The position numbers were made by a program, and so were the translations under genes. From Candidatus Auribacterota bacterium (lineage in GTDB: Bacteria; Auribacterota; Tritonobacteria; UBA1439): a DNA stretch of 35,185 bases. The notes beneath the pieces are model-generated. The model saw only the letters and a program-made list of their open reading frames with translations, did no database searches and was not told the origin of the DNA. The stretch spans positions 1-35,185 of the forward strand of contig JAPLCX010000029.1 of NCBI GenBank assembly GCA_026392035.1, read 5' to 3'. Positions 24,906 through 32,891 of this stretch are shown piece by piece. Numbering within the stretch: position 1 is the stretch's first letter; each line of letters begins with the position of its first letter.

Positions 24906-25538
24906 ATGATTTCACTGTTTGTCAGAATATTTATAGTGGCCGGCGCGGCGTATCTCGTGGGTTCCATTCCTACGGCCTATATCATGGGGCGCATCGTCAG
25001 GGGGATTGACATACGGGACTACGGGAGCGGGAATGTCGGAGCGACCAATGTGATGCGCGTCCTCGGTTCCGCTGCGGGCATTGCAACGCTGGGAATTGAC
25101 GTGCTGAAAGGCTATCTGGTGGTCGCGCTCCTCCCGACGTGGGCCTGTGGCGATTCAGCGCATCTCCCGTTCTGGCAGATTCTCTCGTGCGTCGCGGTCA
25201 TCGCGGGCCATACATGGATGATCTTTCTCAGATTCGAGGGGGGCAAAGGGGTCGCCGCCACCGCCGGCGCGTTCCTGGCCCTGGCGCCCCTGGCGTCTCT
25301 TTCCGCGATAGGGCTATGGGGTATAGTTGTCGCACTCACGCGCTATGTCTCGCTCGGGTCAATTGTCGCGGGTCTATCCCTGCCTGTTTTCATGCTGCTT
25401 TTTCACAAGCCGATGGCCTATTTCTGGTTTTCGCTCTTCCTGGCGCTCGCCCTGACTTTGAAGCACCGCGGTAATCTGAAGAGGCTGATCGCGGGCACCG
25501 AGCGGAAGATCGGGCAGGCTGAGAGACTGGACAGATGA
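24906..25538 (+). CDS. plsY: Glycerol-3-phosphate acyltransferase PlsY
   Basis: 210 residues, an integral-membrane enzyme that acylates glycerol-3-phosphate from acyl phosphate, starting phospholipid synthesis. All three PlsY motifs are seen: GSIPTAYIMGRIVRGIDIR with DYGSGNVGATNVMR, GHTWMIFLRFEGGKGVA, and KHRGNLKRL near the C-terminus. About five to six membrane segments lie between them. GGGAGGAG about 7 bases upstream supports the start. The stop overlaps the gpsA ATG (ATGA), consistent with a coupled pair consuming the product of GpsA. Confidence 0.95.
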   Translation: MISLFVRIFIVAGAAYLVGSIPTAYIMGRIVRGIDIRDYGSGNVGATNVMRVLGSAAGIATLGIDVLKGYLVVALLPTWACGDSAHLPFWQILSCVAVIAGHTWMIFLRFEGGKGVAATAGAFLALAPLASLSAIGLWGIVVALTRYVSLGSIVAGLSLPVFMLLFHKPMAYFWFSLFLALALTLKHRGNLKRLIAGTERKIGQAERLDR

Positions 25539-26575
25539 ACAAACGCGCTGAATCTGGGATGCCGCGGGTTGCGGTTCTGGGCGATGGAGGATGGGGGACT
25601 ACCCTTGCCATCCTCCTCCACAGAAAGGGCGTGGGCGTTACCCTCTGGGGGGCGTTCCCGGAGTATGTCGAGTTCCTCAGGAGACGGAGGATCAATAAGA
25701 AATTCTTGCCCGGCGTGGCGATTCCTCGCGGCCTTCGCATCACCGCCCGGCTCGAAGAGGCGGTCGATGACGCGGGGGTGATCATTGCCGCGGTCCCCTC
25801 ACACCACATGCGGCGGATATGCCGCAGGGTGGGGGCACTCCTCTCCCGACAGAGAAACAATCGCTTCCCGCTCATCATAAGCGGATCGAAAGGGATTGAG
25901 ATCGCCACACTGATGAGGATGTCGCAAGTCATCAGAGAGGAGATCCATGACGTTCGCGTCGCTGCGCTCTCCGGCCCGAGCCACGCAGAAGAAGTTGTCT
26001 GTGGAAGCCCCACGACAGTGGTCGTCGCGGCGCCCGATGAACAGACCGCCATGGAAGCCCAGCGCCTTCTCATGACCGAGCGCTTCAGGGTGTATACGAA
26101 TCCCGACCTCATCGGCGTCGAGATCGGCGGCGCCATTAAGAACGTGATCGCCATCGCCGCGGGCGCGTGTGACGGCCTTGGATTCGGCGACAATGCGAAG
26201 GCGGCCCTCATCACGAGAGGGATAGTGGAAATCACCCGCCTCGGGGCCGCCATGGGAGCGAAGGCAAGCACCTTCTGGGGACTCGCGGGAATCGGCGATC
26301 TGATCACCACCTGTGTCAGCCGCTACGGCCGGAATCGCAAGGTGGGGGAGATGATTGCGAGGGGTAAGAAATTAAAACAGATTCTCGCGAGCATGGAGAT
26401 GGTTGCCGAAGGCATTCTCACCACAAAGGCTGCCCGCAAACTCTCGCTGCGGCACCAGGTGGAGATGCCGATCACCGACCAGGTATACGCGGTGCTGTAC
26501 CGCGGAAAGGACCCGGGAACGGCGGTGCGCGAACTCATGATGAGAAGCCCAAAAGCGGAGATGCACAACGCATAA
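25535..26575 (+). CDS. gpsA: NAD(P)H-dependent glycerol-3-phosphate dehydrogenase
   Basis: 346 residues. Reduces dihydroxyacetone phosphate to sn-glycerol-3-phosphate, the substrate of PlsY upstream. Rossmann motif VAVLGDGGWGTTLAILL (about residues 12-28), KGIE, the SGPSHAEEV loop, the catalytic Lys region EIGGAIKNVIAIAAG, DNAKAALITRGIVEITRLG and SRYGRNRKVGE are intact. About eight extra residues precede the usual start, because the ATG is fused to the plsY stop. An internal ATG at residue 9 would give a more usual N-terminus, but the coupling favours the first. Confidence 0.95.
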   Translation: MNKRAESGMPRVAVLGDGGWGTTLAILLHRKGVGVTLWGAFPEYVEFLRRRRINKKFLPGVAIPRGLRITARLEEAVDDAGVIIAAVPSHHMRRICRRVGALLSRQRNNRFPLIISGSKGIEIATLMRMSQVIREEIHDVRVAALSGPSHAEEVVCGSPTTVVVAAPDEQTAMEAQRLLMTERFRVYTNPDLIGVEIGGAIKNVIAIAAGACDGLGFGDNAKAALITRGIVEITRLGAAMGAKASTFWGLAGIGDLITTCVSRYGRNRKVGEMIARGKKLKQILASMEMVAEGILTTKAARKLSLRHQVEMPITDQVYAVLYRGKDPGTAVRELMMRSPKAEMHNA

Positions 26576-26581
26576 TAAAAT

Positions 26582-26711
26582 AGAAACCCGAAATCCTAAA
26601 TCCTAAACAAACACAAAACCCAAATGCTCAAAACCAAATTCACTCTGTTTCGTAAGTTTGGATTTTGTATTTTGGATTTATTTAGAGTTTCGAGTTTAGG
26701 GTTTAGAATTT
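26582..26711. repeat. Inverted-repeat element, AAACCCTAAATCC family
   Basis: The left arm (from 26582: AGAAACCCGAAATCC, CTAAATCCTAAAC and on) complements the right arm (about 26655-26711: GGATTTTGTATTTTGG, GTTTAGGGTTTAG). The whole 130-base stretch could fold as one long imperfect hairpin and fills the gap from just after gpsA to 31 bases before the next gene. Confidence 0.87.
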
Positions 26712-26741
26712 CTTTGTTTCAGAGGAGGATGAGGACGTCAA

Positions 26742-29700
26742 ATGCACCGAAATTTGATGCCGGCCCTGCTGTGCATGGCAGCGATCTATGCGAGCACATA
26801 TGAAACCCCGGCAACAGCCGCACAAAAGGTTTCCGTCCCCGCCAACCAGCCTTATGTGGATACGGGACTGGACATAAAGGAGGGCGATCCGCTCCGGGTT
26901 ACCGCCACAGGGGAGATAGAGATCTCTGAGTGGGCGTACCTCGGCAGGGACGGTTACGACTGGCATGTGAGCCCGCTCGGGACCTACCGTTGCGAGAAAT
27001 CAGCGAAGGACAAGGCATTCCCGCTCCCGGTCATCGACAAGGGCCCGGCGCCCTGCTACTGCCTCATCGGGAAGATTGGCCAGAACGGCGCCCCCTTTTA
27101 CATCGGCACGAAATACCAGGGCGCGGCAGCTGCGGCCGGCAGATTATACCTCGGTATAAACGATGTTACCTTCAGCGACAATAAGGGGACATTCACTTCC
27201 ATGATCATGACGGGCAACGAAGCTGAGCAAACCACTCAGAAGAAAGACGACATCGTCTTCAGCGCCAGGGAGCTGCCCCCCGGCCAGCCGATACCGGATG
27301 CCAACGTCGTGCTCCTCTATGTGGATGGCCTGCGGTATGACGTCCTGCGCGAAATGGCGGAGGCCGGCCATCTCCCCACGATAAAATCCCTGTTCTTCGA
27401 TGGGGGAACGGATTTCATCAATGCCTTCACCGTCTTCCCCTCCAGTACGCTCGCGAGCAATTCCACGCTCTACACGGGTGTGTTTCCCAACCGTTCTGGG
27501 GTCAAGGGCAACAACTATTTTGACCGGAAGCGCCAGAAAGGCGACACCTACCTGAAGCCATTCGGCCCGCCCGTTGCCGCTGAAGAACACCGCCCCTCAG
27601 GGGTGCATCGCCTCGGGGTGGAAGCGAAAAAGGTAGCGCTTCGTCCTTTCCCTCGCGCATATGAGCGGTACCTCGAAAAAAGGAAGGCTGATATCCCTCT
27701 CCTCGAGGACTACCTGTACGAGCGCGATATGCCGTACTACACCTCCGCGCAGCCGGTGCTCTCGCACTCGCCTCCCGACAGCTATGAGGTGGATGCCTCG
27801 ACCGTCATACCGCCGTTCCAGTTCCATAATGCCGCCGACTATATGGATGAGATACATGCCCGATTTGCGAAGGGCCAGGTCATTCAATCCGATGCGCGCG
27901 TGATGAACTTCTGGTTCCCCACCGTAGATACCAGCGGCCATGATTCTCCCCGCGCCCAGTTCGGCGGCAGCAGAAAGTCGCTCGCCATGATGGATCGATG
28001 GGTGGGCGGCATCGTGGAAGAGCTCAAGAAAAAGAAGCTGTGGGACCGCACCTATATGATCCTTTTCGCGGACCATGGCACCATGGGGGGCGAACACGAG
28101 ATCCTGCAAAAAGTCGACCCTGGCCGCGATTTCTTTTACAAGCCGATTACCCATGCCGCAGCCGACGGGCAGATGGCCGGCGACTCGGGGATGGGCTGTA
28201 ACGTCCGCTGGTATGACGACGCGTACTGGAGGAAGGGGAGAAGAAAAAAGGGCTATGTGTTCATTGATTATGGCGAGGGCGAAAGCCGTGTGTACCTCCC
28301 GTATAAAGATGTCGATTCCGGGAAATGGCTCGATCGGAACACGCTCTATGATCTGACGCACTATACGGTCGCGCCCGGTGTGAAAGACATTAATCTCATC
28401 AAGCGCCTCCTCTCCTGGGATATGCACGGCGAGAACCTCTTCCCCGAGGCAATTCCCAATCGCCCCATTGGCCAGATTCTGGTCAAGCTCGACTCACGCC
28501 GCGTCGCGGTCTTCGGACAGGATGGCGTACAGGCGGTCATAGAGCGGAAGCCCGCCGGAGGAGACCGCTACGCGTACCGTTATGTCCCCGCGCATGATAT
28601 CACCTGCACCGCGGATGGTACAATTGCGTACGCCCCCGCGGAATCGTCCGAACCGTTCGGGTACCTGGAGGCGGGCATTTTGCTCTCCTGGCTCACGGAA
28701 TATCATCCGGAGCGCGAGTGGCTGGAGAAGACGATGTACCTCCCGTATCCTGATTCCGTCGTGGCGATTGCCAATCAGATGTTCTGGGATGGACATATGG
28801 CCGAGCGGGAGCAGCGATATTCTCCTGACATGGTGTTCTGCGCCAATCGCGGCTGGTCGCTGGAAAAACCGGAAAAACCTTCTGGGGGACATGGGTTCCT
28901 GTACTACGAATCGATGCATATCCCGTTCTTCGTCACCGGCCCGAATGTGCGGAAGGGGATCATCGTCACTGACGCGGTGCGCGGGGCCGATCTCGTCCCC
29001 ACGGTGCTCTCGCTCATCGGCGCACAGCCTGACGAGGCCCGTTTTGATGGCAAGGTCCTGGGTGGTTTCCTGAAGGGGGAGGGTGAGAAAGAAACCGGCA
29101 TCACAGGCGCCTCAGCAAAGGAGATCCTCGCCCGTCTCCCGTACGCGGATGAAAAACTCGATTACACCGACCTCGTCACCGAGTACCAGCGGCGCGTGGA
29201 CGCGAAGAGGCCGGTGTCTCTCGCTCCGGATACGCGGTACAAGGGGCACGACTATAAGAATCCGACGGATATTCACAATGTGGCCGCGGACGTGCTCGGC
29301 ATCCTCAACCGGGCAGTCCTGACCGATCTGGATAATATCATTGACCTCGCCGTCCCCGGCGATAAAAAACAACCCATCAGCACGGGTCTGGATAAAATGG
29401 TAGAAGAATATGACAAACTCCCCGATTCAATACCCAAAGAAAGGTTCCGAGAACTGTTCCACGCATTGCAGATCAGGCAAGTCACCCTGGGCGAGGTCCC
29501 CTCGGCCGTTTTCGCTAATGTGACCGGCCTCGCGGGGCGCGGGACCGCCTACCGCGCGACATTGCTTCTCACGTGGCTGGAACATGTATTTTCGGATATG
29601 GATCGTGGCCTGCTCTATCCGGTGAGGGATAAGAACATCAAAGCGGTCAGCAACGTCAATTATGGCCTCGAGGGGGTGAGGATCACGCTTCAAAAACTTT

Positions 29701-29891
29701 CGTGGGGCTTGACGCACTACCTCGGGAGCGCATTCTACGAGGGCATCATGCACGTGGAGAAGTTTGACGAGAAAGTCGTACGCGGCGTGAAAGGCCAACA
29801 GGAACCGATCGCGGATACCCTCTCCCCGCATGATATCCCCGCGAAGCAGAACGCATGCGCGGGCACGGTCAACGCATCCTCGAATCCATGA
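26742..29891 (+). CDS. Exported LecA-like/alkaline-phosphatase-superfamily phosphodiesterase
   Basis: 1049 residues. A signal peptide (1 to about 27, ending PATAA) is followed by a domain resembling the PA-IL (LecA) galactose-lectin fold (about 28-158: VDTGLDIKEGDPLRVTATG, CLIGKIGQNGAPFYIG, GRLYLGINDVTFSDNKG). Then comes a type I phosphodiesterase domain. By comparison with nucleotide pyrophosphatases the metal site and nucleophile are Asp195 (YVDGLR), Thr236 (FPSST), Asp396 and His400 (DTSGH), Asp444-His445 (ADHG) and His717 (GHGFLYYESMH). The span between 445 and 717 is far longer than usual. About 300 C-terminal residues match nothing I know. GAGG 7 bases upstream supports ATG 26742. It overlaps the protease gene. 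Substrate unknown; exported hydrolysis of a sugar- or nucleotide-linked phosphate is inference. Confidence 0.85.
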   Translation: MHRNLMPALLCMAAIYASTYETPATAAQKVSVPANQPYVDTGLDIKEGDPLRVTATGEIEISEWAYLGRDGYDWHVSPLGTYRCEKSAKDKAFPLPVIDKGPAPCYCLIGKIGQNGAPFYIGTKYQGAAAAAGRLYLGINDVTFSDNKGTFTSMIMTGNEAEQTTQKKDDIVFSARELPPGQPIPDANVVLLYVDGLRYDVLREMAEAGHLPTIKSLFFDGGTDFINAFTVFPSSTLASNSTLYTGVFPNRSGVKGNNYFDRKRQKGDTYLKPFGPPVAAEEHRPSGVHRLGVEAKKVALRPFPRAYERYLEKRKADIPLLEDYLYERDMPYYTSAQPVLSHSPPDSYEVDASTVIPPFQFHNAADYMDEIHARFAKGQVIQSDARVMNFWFPTVDTSGHDSPRAQFGGSRKSLAMMDRWVGGIVEELKKKKLWDRTYMILFADHGTMGGEHEILQKVDPGRDFFYKPITHAAADGQMAGDSGMGCNVRWYDDAYWRKGRRKKGYVFIDYGEGESRVYLPYKDVDSGKWLDRNTLYDLTHYTVAPGVKDINLIKRLLSWDMHGENLFPEAIPNRPIGQILVKLDSRRVAVFGQDGVQAVIERKPAGGDRYAYRYVPAHDITCTADGTIAYAPAESSEPFGYLEAGILLSWLTEYHPEREWLEKTMYLPYPDSVVAIANQMFWDGHMAEREQRYSPDMVFCANRGWSLEKPEKPSGGHGFLYYESMHIPFFVTGPNVRKGIIVTDAVRGADLVPTVLSLIGAQPDEARFDGKVLGGFLKGEGEKETGITGASAKEILARLPYADEKLDYTDLVTEYQRRVDAKRPVSLAPDTRYKGHDYKNPTDIHNVAADVLGILNRAVLTDLDNIIDLAVPGDKKQPISTGLDKMVEEYDKLPDSIPKERFRELFHALQIRQVTLGEVPSAVFANVTGLAGRGTAYRATLLLTWLEHVFSDMDRGLLYPVRDKNIKAVSNVNYGLEGVRITLQKLSWGLTHYLGSAFYEGIMHVEKFDEKVVRGVKGQQEPIADTLSPHDIPAKQNACAGTVNASSNP

Positions 29892-30562
29892 TTGATTTTA
29901 TCACGGGGTATCTTATCTTTCTTTTCGTCGTTTCGGTCCACGAATATTTTCATGCCTGGACGGCAGACCGATGCGGCGATCCCACCGCCCGCCTCCTGGG
30001 AAGATTGACGCTGGACCCGCGCGCGCACATTGACCCGATCGGCACAGTATTCATTCCTCTCTCGCCGCTTATATTTGGCCTTTTGGGAGAAGGCGGCATG
30101 CGGTTCCCCGGCGGCCTCAGATTTTTCGGATGGGCCAAACCGGTCCCCGTCAACCCGCTCAACGTGCGCCGCAGGCGCATTGACAACATGCTCGTCAGTA
30201 TCGCGGGATGCGCGTCGGGATTCCTCATCGCCCTTGTGGCTGCCCTGGTCCTGCGGGGGTTGAAGATTACGCTTCGCGATGAGATTATTGCCATCAGGGC
30301 GGTGGTGGATATTCTCTGGCGGATGGGCTCGATTAGTATCTGGCTCAGCCTCTTTAACCTCATCCCGATCCCGCCGCTCGATGGATTCCAGTTTGTTTCC
30401 TATTGCCTTCGCCGTGATCCGCTCAGGAGCGGCGCATTCCTTGAGCGGTCCGGCCCATGGCTGCTGCTTTTTCTGATTAACACTCCGTTGCTCTATTCAA
30501 TTCTCGGCCCGATCAATTCAATCCTCTTTTCCGGCATATTCCGATCCATCGCTGGCGTGTAA
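29888..30562 (+). CDS. Site-2 protease (M50) family membrane metalloprotease
   Basis: 224 residues, mostly hydrophobic. The zinc motif HEYFH (His18, Glu19, His22) lies in the first membrane segment and the third ligand in FNLIPIPPLDGFQ (about residue 163), the N-x-P-x-P-P-L-D-G pattern of the short, PDZ-less M50 group. These proteases cut substrates within the membrane. The ATG overlaps the stop of the phosphodiesterase gene (ATGA), so the two are probably translated together. Whether the phosphodiesterase is its substrate or only an operon partner is unknown. Confidence 0.9.
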   Translation: MIDFITGYLIFLFVVSVHEYFHAWTADRCGDPTARLLGRLTLDPRAHIDPIGTVFIPLSPLIFGLLGEGGMRFPGGLRFFGWAKPVPVNPLNVRRRRIDNMLVSIAGCASGFLIALVAALVLRGLKITLRDEIIAIRAVVDILWRMGSISIWLSLFNLIPIPPLDGFQFVSYCLRRDPLRSGAFLERSGPWLLLFLINTPLLYSILGPINSILFSGIFRSIAGV

Positions 30563-30810: not shown

Positions 30811-30888
30811 CGGGGCGTAGCGCAGTCTGGCAAGCGCGCTTGCTTGGGGTGCAAGAGGTCCCGGGTTCGAATCCCGGCGCCCCGACCA
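30811..30888 (+). tRNA. tRNA-Pro (GGG)
   Basis: Full cloverleaf: acceptor stem CGGGGCG with CGCCCCG, anticodon stem CTTGC with GCAAG around the loop TTGGGGT (anticodon GGG), T-arm CCGGG-TTCGAAT-CCCGG, discriminator A, and an encoded CCA at 30886-30888. The C1-G72 pair and A73 are normal for bacterial tRNA-Pro. It reads Pro codons CCC and CCU. Its 3' end is duplicated 100 bases downstream. Confidence 0.97.
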
Positions 30889-31637: not shown

Positions 31638-32891
31638 ATGCTACGAACGAGGCACAGTGTACTGGATTTTGATCCAGATGCGCAAGACCTGGATTTCATG
31701 CTGCATGAGGCAGAGCGGGACCTATGGGGATTCTTACGGGAGGATCAGAGGGCACACGGTAAGATGATCGTGGAGTATCTACTCCAGGAGGAGCAGAAGG
31801 AGCATCTGGGACTGAAGAGGCACGAGAGAGACAAGGATGGCAGGGATGGATACCGTGCAGGGTTTTCGAGGATAAGGATCAAGACGTCCCTGGGGGAGAT
31901 CGAGATCAGGAGGCCGCGGTTACGGCTCCAGACGTATGTGAGCAGGATCCTGCCTCTTTATACGAAATCAGAGAAGCAGTTGCTTGATCTCATCGCCAAT
32001 CTATATCTGGTGGGGGTATCAACACGGAAGATGGCAAAGGGGTTGGAGAGCCTCCTAGGGAAGGCAGGGATAAGCGCCGGTGCGGTGAGCATCATTACGA
32101 ACCGGGTGAAGGAGAAGATCCGGACCTATCACCGGCGGGTACTGGAGGACAAGTACGTATTCCTTTATCTGGATGGGATAACGATTACCGTACAGGGCCT
32201 GGATGGGAAAGGGCGGAAATACCTGCTTCTGGTGGCCTACGGCGTGGATTATACGGGGATCAAGGAGCTCATAGACTTCATGCCGGTGAGGAGCGAATCG
32301 GAGGATAACTGGCAGGGTTTTCTGTTCCAGTTATACGAGCGAGGGTTAAAAGGGAAGAGGTTGAAGCTTATCATCATCGACGGATGCAAGGGGTTGGCAA
32401 ATGCGCTGGACGGGATCTATCCCCGGGTGCTGAGGCAGCGGTGTTGGGTCCATAAGCTCAGGAACGTTGCCACCACCCTAAAAAAGAAAGACGAGGAGGC
32501 CTGTCTTGGTGGGGCGAAGGAGATTTATAAGGCAAAGAGTCTGAAGCAGGCGAGGAAGCAGTTTAAGCGGTGGAAAGCGACATGGGAGAAGGTCTATCCA
32601 AAAGCCGTCGCGTGCATCGAGGCTGATCTGGATGAGTTACTCACCTTCTTCCTTTTCGATCCACGGCACTGGAGGAGGCTCAGGACGACAAATCCGATCG
32701 AGAGGGTGTTCAAGGAGTTCCGGCGCAGAACAGGGGTCATGGACAATCATCTCCCAAACACGGACAGTTGCGAGAAGATCTTCTTTGTGGTGATAGAGTT
32801 CATGAATGAGCGATGGGCTGGTCAGGGCCGGCTTCGCTTTAATAATATCAAGAGCATACCGGAGAACCTGCCTGAGCGAAGTGCAGCATAA
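31638..32891 (+). CDS. IS256-family (mutator-type) transposase
   Basis: 417 residues, full length. The DDE catalytic triad is visible as Asp179 (YLDGITI), Asp248 (IIIDGCKGL) and Glu355 (NPIERVFKEFRRRT), with the family's C-x2-H-type region CWVHKLRNV after the second Asp. The N-terminal part (GRDGYRAGFSRIRIKTSLGEIEI, RRPRLR; LIANLYLVGVSTRKM) is typical of the transposase_mut domain. GGAGAGG 8 bases upstream is the ribosome site, buried in the hairpin described separately. No frameshift or stop interrupts it, so the element may still be active. Confidence 0.95.
   Translation: MLRTRHSVLDFDPDAQDLDFMLHEAERDLWGFLREDQRAHGKMIVEYLLQEEQKEHLGLKRHERDKDGRDGYRAGFSRIRIKTSLGEIEIRRPRLRLQTYVSRILPLYTKSEKQLLDLIANLYLVGVSTRKMAKGLESLLGKAGISAGAVSIITNRVKEKIRTYHRRVLEDKYVFLYLDGITITVQGLDGKGRKYLLLVAYGVDYTGIKELIDFMPVRSESEDNWQGFLFQLYERGLKGKRLKLIIIDGCKGLANALDGIYPRVLRQRCWVHKLRNVATTLKKKDEEACLGGAKEIYKAKSLKQARKQFKRWKATWEKVYPKAVACIEADLDELLTFFLFDPRHWRRLRTTNPIERVFKEFRRRTGVMDNHLPNTDSCEKIFFVVIEFMNERWAGQGRLRFNNIKSIPENLPERSAA

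Follow-up and report, generated by a model that had tools for sequence, protein, structure and literature searches.

The window, a whole contig (C29; 35,185 nucleotides) of a 2.8 Mb Candidatus Auribacterota genome, encodes an exported hydrolase in which a LecA-like domain, a catalytic domain of the NPP type and an all-helical C-terminal module are joined. Sequence comparison and modelling revealed a complete metal site with a threonine nucleophile, an export signal recognised by inspection, and conservation of the three parts in two phyla. We consider it rather likely that this is a secreted NPP-branch phosphodiesterase with two metals, brought to its target by the lectin domain, and that it acts on the cell's own envelope without involvement of the M50 protease encoded directly downstream. 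The features of the locus, with the evidence for each, are as follows.

24906..25538, + strand: plsY-like gene, upstream of gpsA (read from sequence; same order in genome G001 by tblastn synteny)
25535..26575, + strand: gpsA, NAD-dependent glycerol-3-phosphate dehydrogenase (Pfam; upstream neighbour kept in G001, tail fragment in G005)
26742..29891, + strand: exported LecA-like / NPP-type alkaline-phosphatase-superfamily / helical-tail protein, the hydrolase, 1049 aa (sequence, Pfam, homologues, AF2, Foldseek)
26742..26822, + strand: putative signal peptide, residues 1-27, A-x-A type (sequence and alignment, by inspection)
26823..27215, + strand: LecA/PA-IL-like beta-sandwich domain, residues 28-158 (PDB profile matches, sub-threshold Pfam PA-IL, AF2 strands)
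27300..29075, + strand: NPP-type catalytic domain, residues 187-778 (Pfam, ENPP alignments, conservation, Foldseek)
28077..28889, + strand: 271-aa stretch separating DH444-445 from H717, a cap region shared with phylum paralogues (alignment)
29076..29888, + strand: C-terminal all-helical region, residues 779-1049 (model, split homologues, sequence comparison)
29888..30562, + strand: M50 site-2 protease, 224 aa from its corrected start (Pfam Peptidase_M50 8.9e-14, homologue alignment, motifs and hydrophobic segments)

Domains and metal site of the hydrolase

The hydrolase ORF has an AGGAGG 5' of its start at 26742 and a TGA stop at 29889-29891, and the gene order around it, from Pfam and from reading of the sequence, is der-like, plsY-like, gpsA, hydrolase, M50. 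The gap between gpsA and the hydrolase gene is an AT-rich palindromic element (26574-26722; DNA fold z-score -2.8) with approximately 25 matches in the same genome, overlapping matches on both strands being counted, and a few partial ones in other Auribacterota; judged by its sequence, it is an interspersed inverted repeat. A tRNA-Pro(ggg) gene is located at 30811-30888, between the M50 gene and a Mutator-family transposase (Pfam; 31638-32891) situated about 1 kb 3' of the M50 gene.

The first-pass annotation had described an exported fusion of a LecA-like domain to a phosphodiesterase, and this description was upheld by the putative signal peptide, by a Pfam Phosphodiest match on residues 189-476 (E 1.2e-23) and by the N-terminal domain profile, for which the five PDB sequences under E 1 were all LecA-family lectins (PllA best at 4.5e-6, a LecA relative at 7.8e-5). 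The single-sequence Pfam PA-IL match was sub-threshold (E 0.002; 18.6 bits against a curated cut-off of 22.5). AF2 predicted strands in residues 28-158, with a pLDDT of about 90 in most blocks. The likeness to LecA is better over the putative calcium loop, N140-D141-x-T143-x-x-D146-N147, than elsewhere; D141, T143 and N147, together with D146, fall opposite the loop that provides calcium and galactose ligands in LecA, and the threonine is replaced in most other members of the hydrolase family. The domain shares with the LecA/PA-IL/PllA family (PF07828) a beta-sandwich profile match and an ND...DN-G calcium-loop pattern, but differs in being fused to an enzyme, in a loop two residues shorter and in scoring below the Pfam threshold. 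Inspection of the alignment indicated a lipobox-like cysteine in most Planctomycetota homologues, compared with the A-x-A site of the window protein. The same LecA-like domain was also observed in genome G039 (L007, 1378-2541), fused to the start of an MlaA lipoprotein, an outer-membrane lipid-transport protein; this MlaA match (Pfam 2.5e-4) is under its cut-off and covers the last 28 residues ahead of the contig end. The locus prompted the idea that the C-terminal module of the hydrolase might be MlaA-like.

Alignment with ENPPs recovered the complete set of site residues in NPP order: D195, T236 (the nucleophile), D396, H400, D444, H445 and H717. The complete alkaline-phosphatase-superfamily site of the initial description stands: across 20 homologues, six of the seven residues do not vary, and only H400 does, being His or, in three, Glu. 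Those three proteins are the hydrolases of the split type (L034, L038 and L039) described below. N257 aligns with the asparagine that follows the nucleophile in ENPP5, and is presumably the NPP-type Asn as in XacNPP and the ENPPs; its position is occupied by Asp or Gln in Brocadiales, Tritonobacter and other Planctomycetota members. No formylglycine sulfatase motif (C/S-x-P-x-R) was present at the nucleophile, where the sequence reads FPSSTLASN and the threonine is invariant in the homologues. Structure prediction and structural search gave a full-length AF2 model with a confident fold (mean pLDDT 81.5, pTM 0.83) and Foldseek matches to ENPP1 (2.5e-14), XacNPP (TMt up to 0.70) and ENPP6 (TMt 0.67), the SPAP alkaline phosphatase being also among the matches. 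With the NPP branch (XacNPP, ENPP1, ENPP6; PF01663) the window protein has in common the fold, the full two-metal ligand set, the Thr nucleophile and the Asn after it, although identity in the structural alignment is low, about 13%, and it differs in its LecA-like domain, its helical C-terminal module and the 271 residues from the DH pair to the last His.

This last stretch had been taken for an unusually large insertion, a reading that did not hold. In paralogues of the same fold in the phylum, which have no lectin domain, the corresponding stretch is 223-255 residues long (a range that leaves out L127, a wrong-frame ORF in that alignment) and can be aligned over much of its length. A unique insertion was therefore ruled out, and the stretch is better regarded as a shared cap region that is somewhat longer here.

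The C-terminal region had been considered of unfamiliar family, and it remains so: sequence searches returned no Pfam or PDB relatives, and AF2 on the module alone gave a pLDDT of 66, with nothing under E 1.7 in Foldseek. In L034, L038 and L039 the hydrolase stops after the catalytic domain, and the C-module is encoded as a separate lipoprotein-like ORF directly downstream, with a 4-nt overlap; this arrangement, in three related genomes, shows that the region can exist on its own and is a partner module.

Distribution and gene neighbourhoods

The hydrolase was found in six of 44 Auribacterota genomes, in one of them as fragments at contig ends. Outside this phylum, 17 further loci (two cut by contig ends) were recovered from the contig collection; a scan of that collection with a single protein found no relatives, whereas the alignment-based scan did. 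Nearly all of the 17 are titled Planctomycetota. One record (L039) is labelled Desulfobacterales yet is close to the Planctomycetota copies, and is perhaps a misbinned contig. Among 294 sampled Planctomycetota genomes the hydrolase occurred in nine, five of which are also represented in the 17 loci. Full-length relatives are present in about 20 Planctomycetota genomes. The C-module was detected in exactly the nine hydrolase-bearing genomes, as was a strong subgroup of the N-terminal domain, weaker relatives of which occurred in 29 further genomes. On this sequence evidence, the three parts have been conserved as a set in both Auribacterota and Planctomycetota, and the family is rare. Internal-stop flags in homologues raised the question of pseudogenes; this reading was rejected, since the flags mark matches running beyond the true stop and the ORFs are intact. 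No literature on a lectin/phosphodiesterase/helical-tail fusion was found. What is new is the combination of domains; the parts are known and the chemistry is ordinary.

The genome from which the window derives holds a second hydrolase copy (L121, 2083-7194; G000:C91), located 69 nt 3' of a gene for a MacB-type ABC exporter. The hydrolase of G001 is 71% identical to this paralogue and 61% to the window copy; nevertheless G001 shares the window order plsY-gpsA-hydrolase-M50. The paralogue is the closer of the two to the G001 protein; either the gene was duplicated and the copies were then lost differentially, or the copy at this locus was replaced.

In six Brocadiales-like loci (L023, L024, L025, L026, L032 and L119), the hydrolase gene is flanked by a divergently oriented hpnG on one side and by hpnH on the other, and several of them have shc nearby. 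Here hpnG was recognised by Pfam PNP_UDP_1, hpnH, directly downstream of the hydrolase, as a DUF3463 radical SAM gene, and shc encodes squalene-hopene cyclase. The hopanoid side-chain genes hpnG and hpnH adjoin the hydrolase gene in Brocadiales but are missing from the Auribacterota carriers. Elsewhere in Planctomycetota, a PAP2 phosphatase gene lies upstream of the hydrolase in one locus and ferrochelatase adjoins it in two (L118, by Pfam; L116, by sequence resemblance), and the Tritonobacter hydrolase has two-component genes as neighbours. A divergently transcribed gene for a protein of 350-420 aa with a start like FLGNFDFEHQL recurs beside Planctomycetota hydrolases (L028, L030, L037, L116 and L118), and no Pfam match was obtained for the two that were scanned. 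As far as the sequences indicate, no single pathway fits all of these neighbourhoods.

The M50 protease and the candidate function of the hydrolase

The annotated M50 ORF (29855-30562, + strand, 235 aa) contains, in its own numbering, HEYFH at residues 29-33 and NLIPIPPLDG at residues 168-177, which supply both the HExxH in a membrane helix and the second N..P.P.LDG motif. The start is most likely at 29888, a position at which homologues either begin or carry a Met in the alignment; the hydrolase TGA and the M50 ATG then share ATGA, a 4-nt overlap, in agreement with the overlap noted at first pass. The protein resembles short SpoIVFB-like M50B site-2 proteases (PF02163) in its HExxH, NxxPxPPLDG and hydrophobic segments and in having no PDZ domain; nothing in it is unusual for that group, and it differs in its gene neighbour alone.

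Coupling of a surface hydrolase to an intramembrane protease, with proteolytic control of glycan or phosphoester processing, was part of the original proposal; the protease would cleave or release the hydrolase or a regulator. The neighbourhood survey bore out the pairing only within the GTDB family of the window, where the two genes adjoin in all five genomes that have the hydrolase; among the other genomes searched, they adjoin nowhere. Three of the five are tightly spaced (a 4-nt overlap in the window, gaps of 1 nt in G005 and about 5 nt in G004), and G003, the only family genome lacking the hydrolase (96% complete), also lacks this M50; these points favour a regulated pair. Against such a pair, the gaps are about 120 nt in G002 and 421 nt in G001, and M50 homologues are present in 38 of the 44 Auribacterota genomes, usually as one copy and mostly without the hydrolase; at the three loci outside the family that were inspected, the neighbours were an M16-type peptidase gene or scpA/scpB-like genes (read from sequence). 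In the Tritonobacter and Planctomycetota genomes, tblastn detected no M50 gene in the sequence flanking the hydrolase (up to 8 kb, in several cases shortened by contig ends), and none follows the paralogue in the window's own genome, in which this M50 is single copy. No transmembrane segment that could serve as a protease target was found in the hydrolase beyond its signal peptide. A general hydrolase-M50 system was therefore rejected and proteolytic control appears highly improbable; the M50, to judge from its sequence and distribution, is a generic, common housekeeping site-2 protease outside the hydrolase mechanism, its pairing being local to one family, where it probably shares a transcript with the hydrolase. 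The first-pass annotation was to be abandoned if the pair occurred nowhere else and the C-terminus matched a routine family; the pair was found again, within a narrow range, and no routine family matched the C-terminus.

The Brocadiales loci might indicate that the lipid context is the true role and that the hydrolase processes a hopanoid or another lipid intermediate, such as a phosphorylated product of HpnG, which has been described as a putative phosphorylase (PMC12583986) and could leave one. In addition to the gene order, HpnH is present in eight of the nine hydrolase-bearing Planctomycetota compared with 107 of all 294 sampled genomes (Fisher p 0.0016, with no correction for relatedness). 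However, 99 of the 107 HpnH-bearing genomes have no hydrolase, HpnH is missing in four of the 15 other (non-Auribacterota) carrier genomes, and the hydrolase is exported. Neither HpnH nor squalene-hopene cyclase was found in the Auribacterota hosts, which excludes hopanoids as a substrate shared by all carriers, and a common hopanoid function was ruled out for this phylum; the reading as a whole is distinctly unlikely. A nutrient-scavenging phosphatase or phosphodiesterase, whose lectin domain would capture phosphoesters from outside the cell, would suit the exported NPP/PhoK-like fold and the SPAP match, but the annotated neighbourhoods contain no phosphate-uptake genes beside the hydrolase, and we regard this role as unlikely.

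The favoured reading is an NPP-branch phosphodiesterase acting on the envelope, and its likeliest substrate class would be a phosphoester headgroup carried by a lipid or glycan that the cell makes for its own envelope. Envelope-lipid neighbours in some lineages (plsY/gpsA, hpnG/hpnH/shc and PAP2) were counted in its favour; since the neighbours vary by lineage (MacB exporter, two-component genes, ferrochelatase), the substrate class is a guess. The LecA-like domain would use calcium to bind an envelope molecule that bears sugar, and would hold the catalytic domain at its target. There, between two zinc ions, T236 would attack the phosphoester, and water would then free the product. The helical C-module may anchor or organise the enzyme at the membrane or form a substrate entry, as it is also encoded as a separate lipoprotein by a directly downstream, overlapping gene. 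By its signals, the hydrolase is probably periplasmic or at the surface or outer membrane here, and lipid-anchored in Planctomycetota; phosphatase instead of phosphodiesterase activity is possible. A more specific proposal, which we consider very doubtful, is a hitherto undescribed envelope-lipid tailoring system in which the lectin-targeted zinc phosphoesterase and its dedicated helical lipoprotein partner, fused or separate, would remove the phosphorylated headgroup of outer-membrane lipids; these would be hopanoids in the case of Brocadiales and glycerolipids in that of Auribacterota.

The hydrolase represents a rare family of three-module exported enzymes across two phyla, with a C-terminal domain unnamed in any library, and in one lineage its gene is placed inside the Brocadiales hopanoid locus. 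If the lipid reading is true, the hydrolase would be a candidate enzyme for a step of envelope-lipid metabolism that has none assigned.
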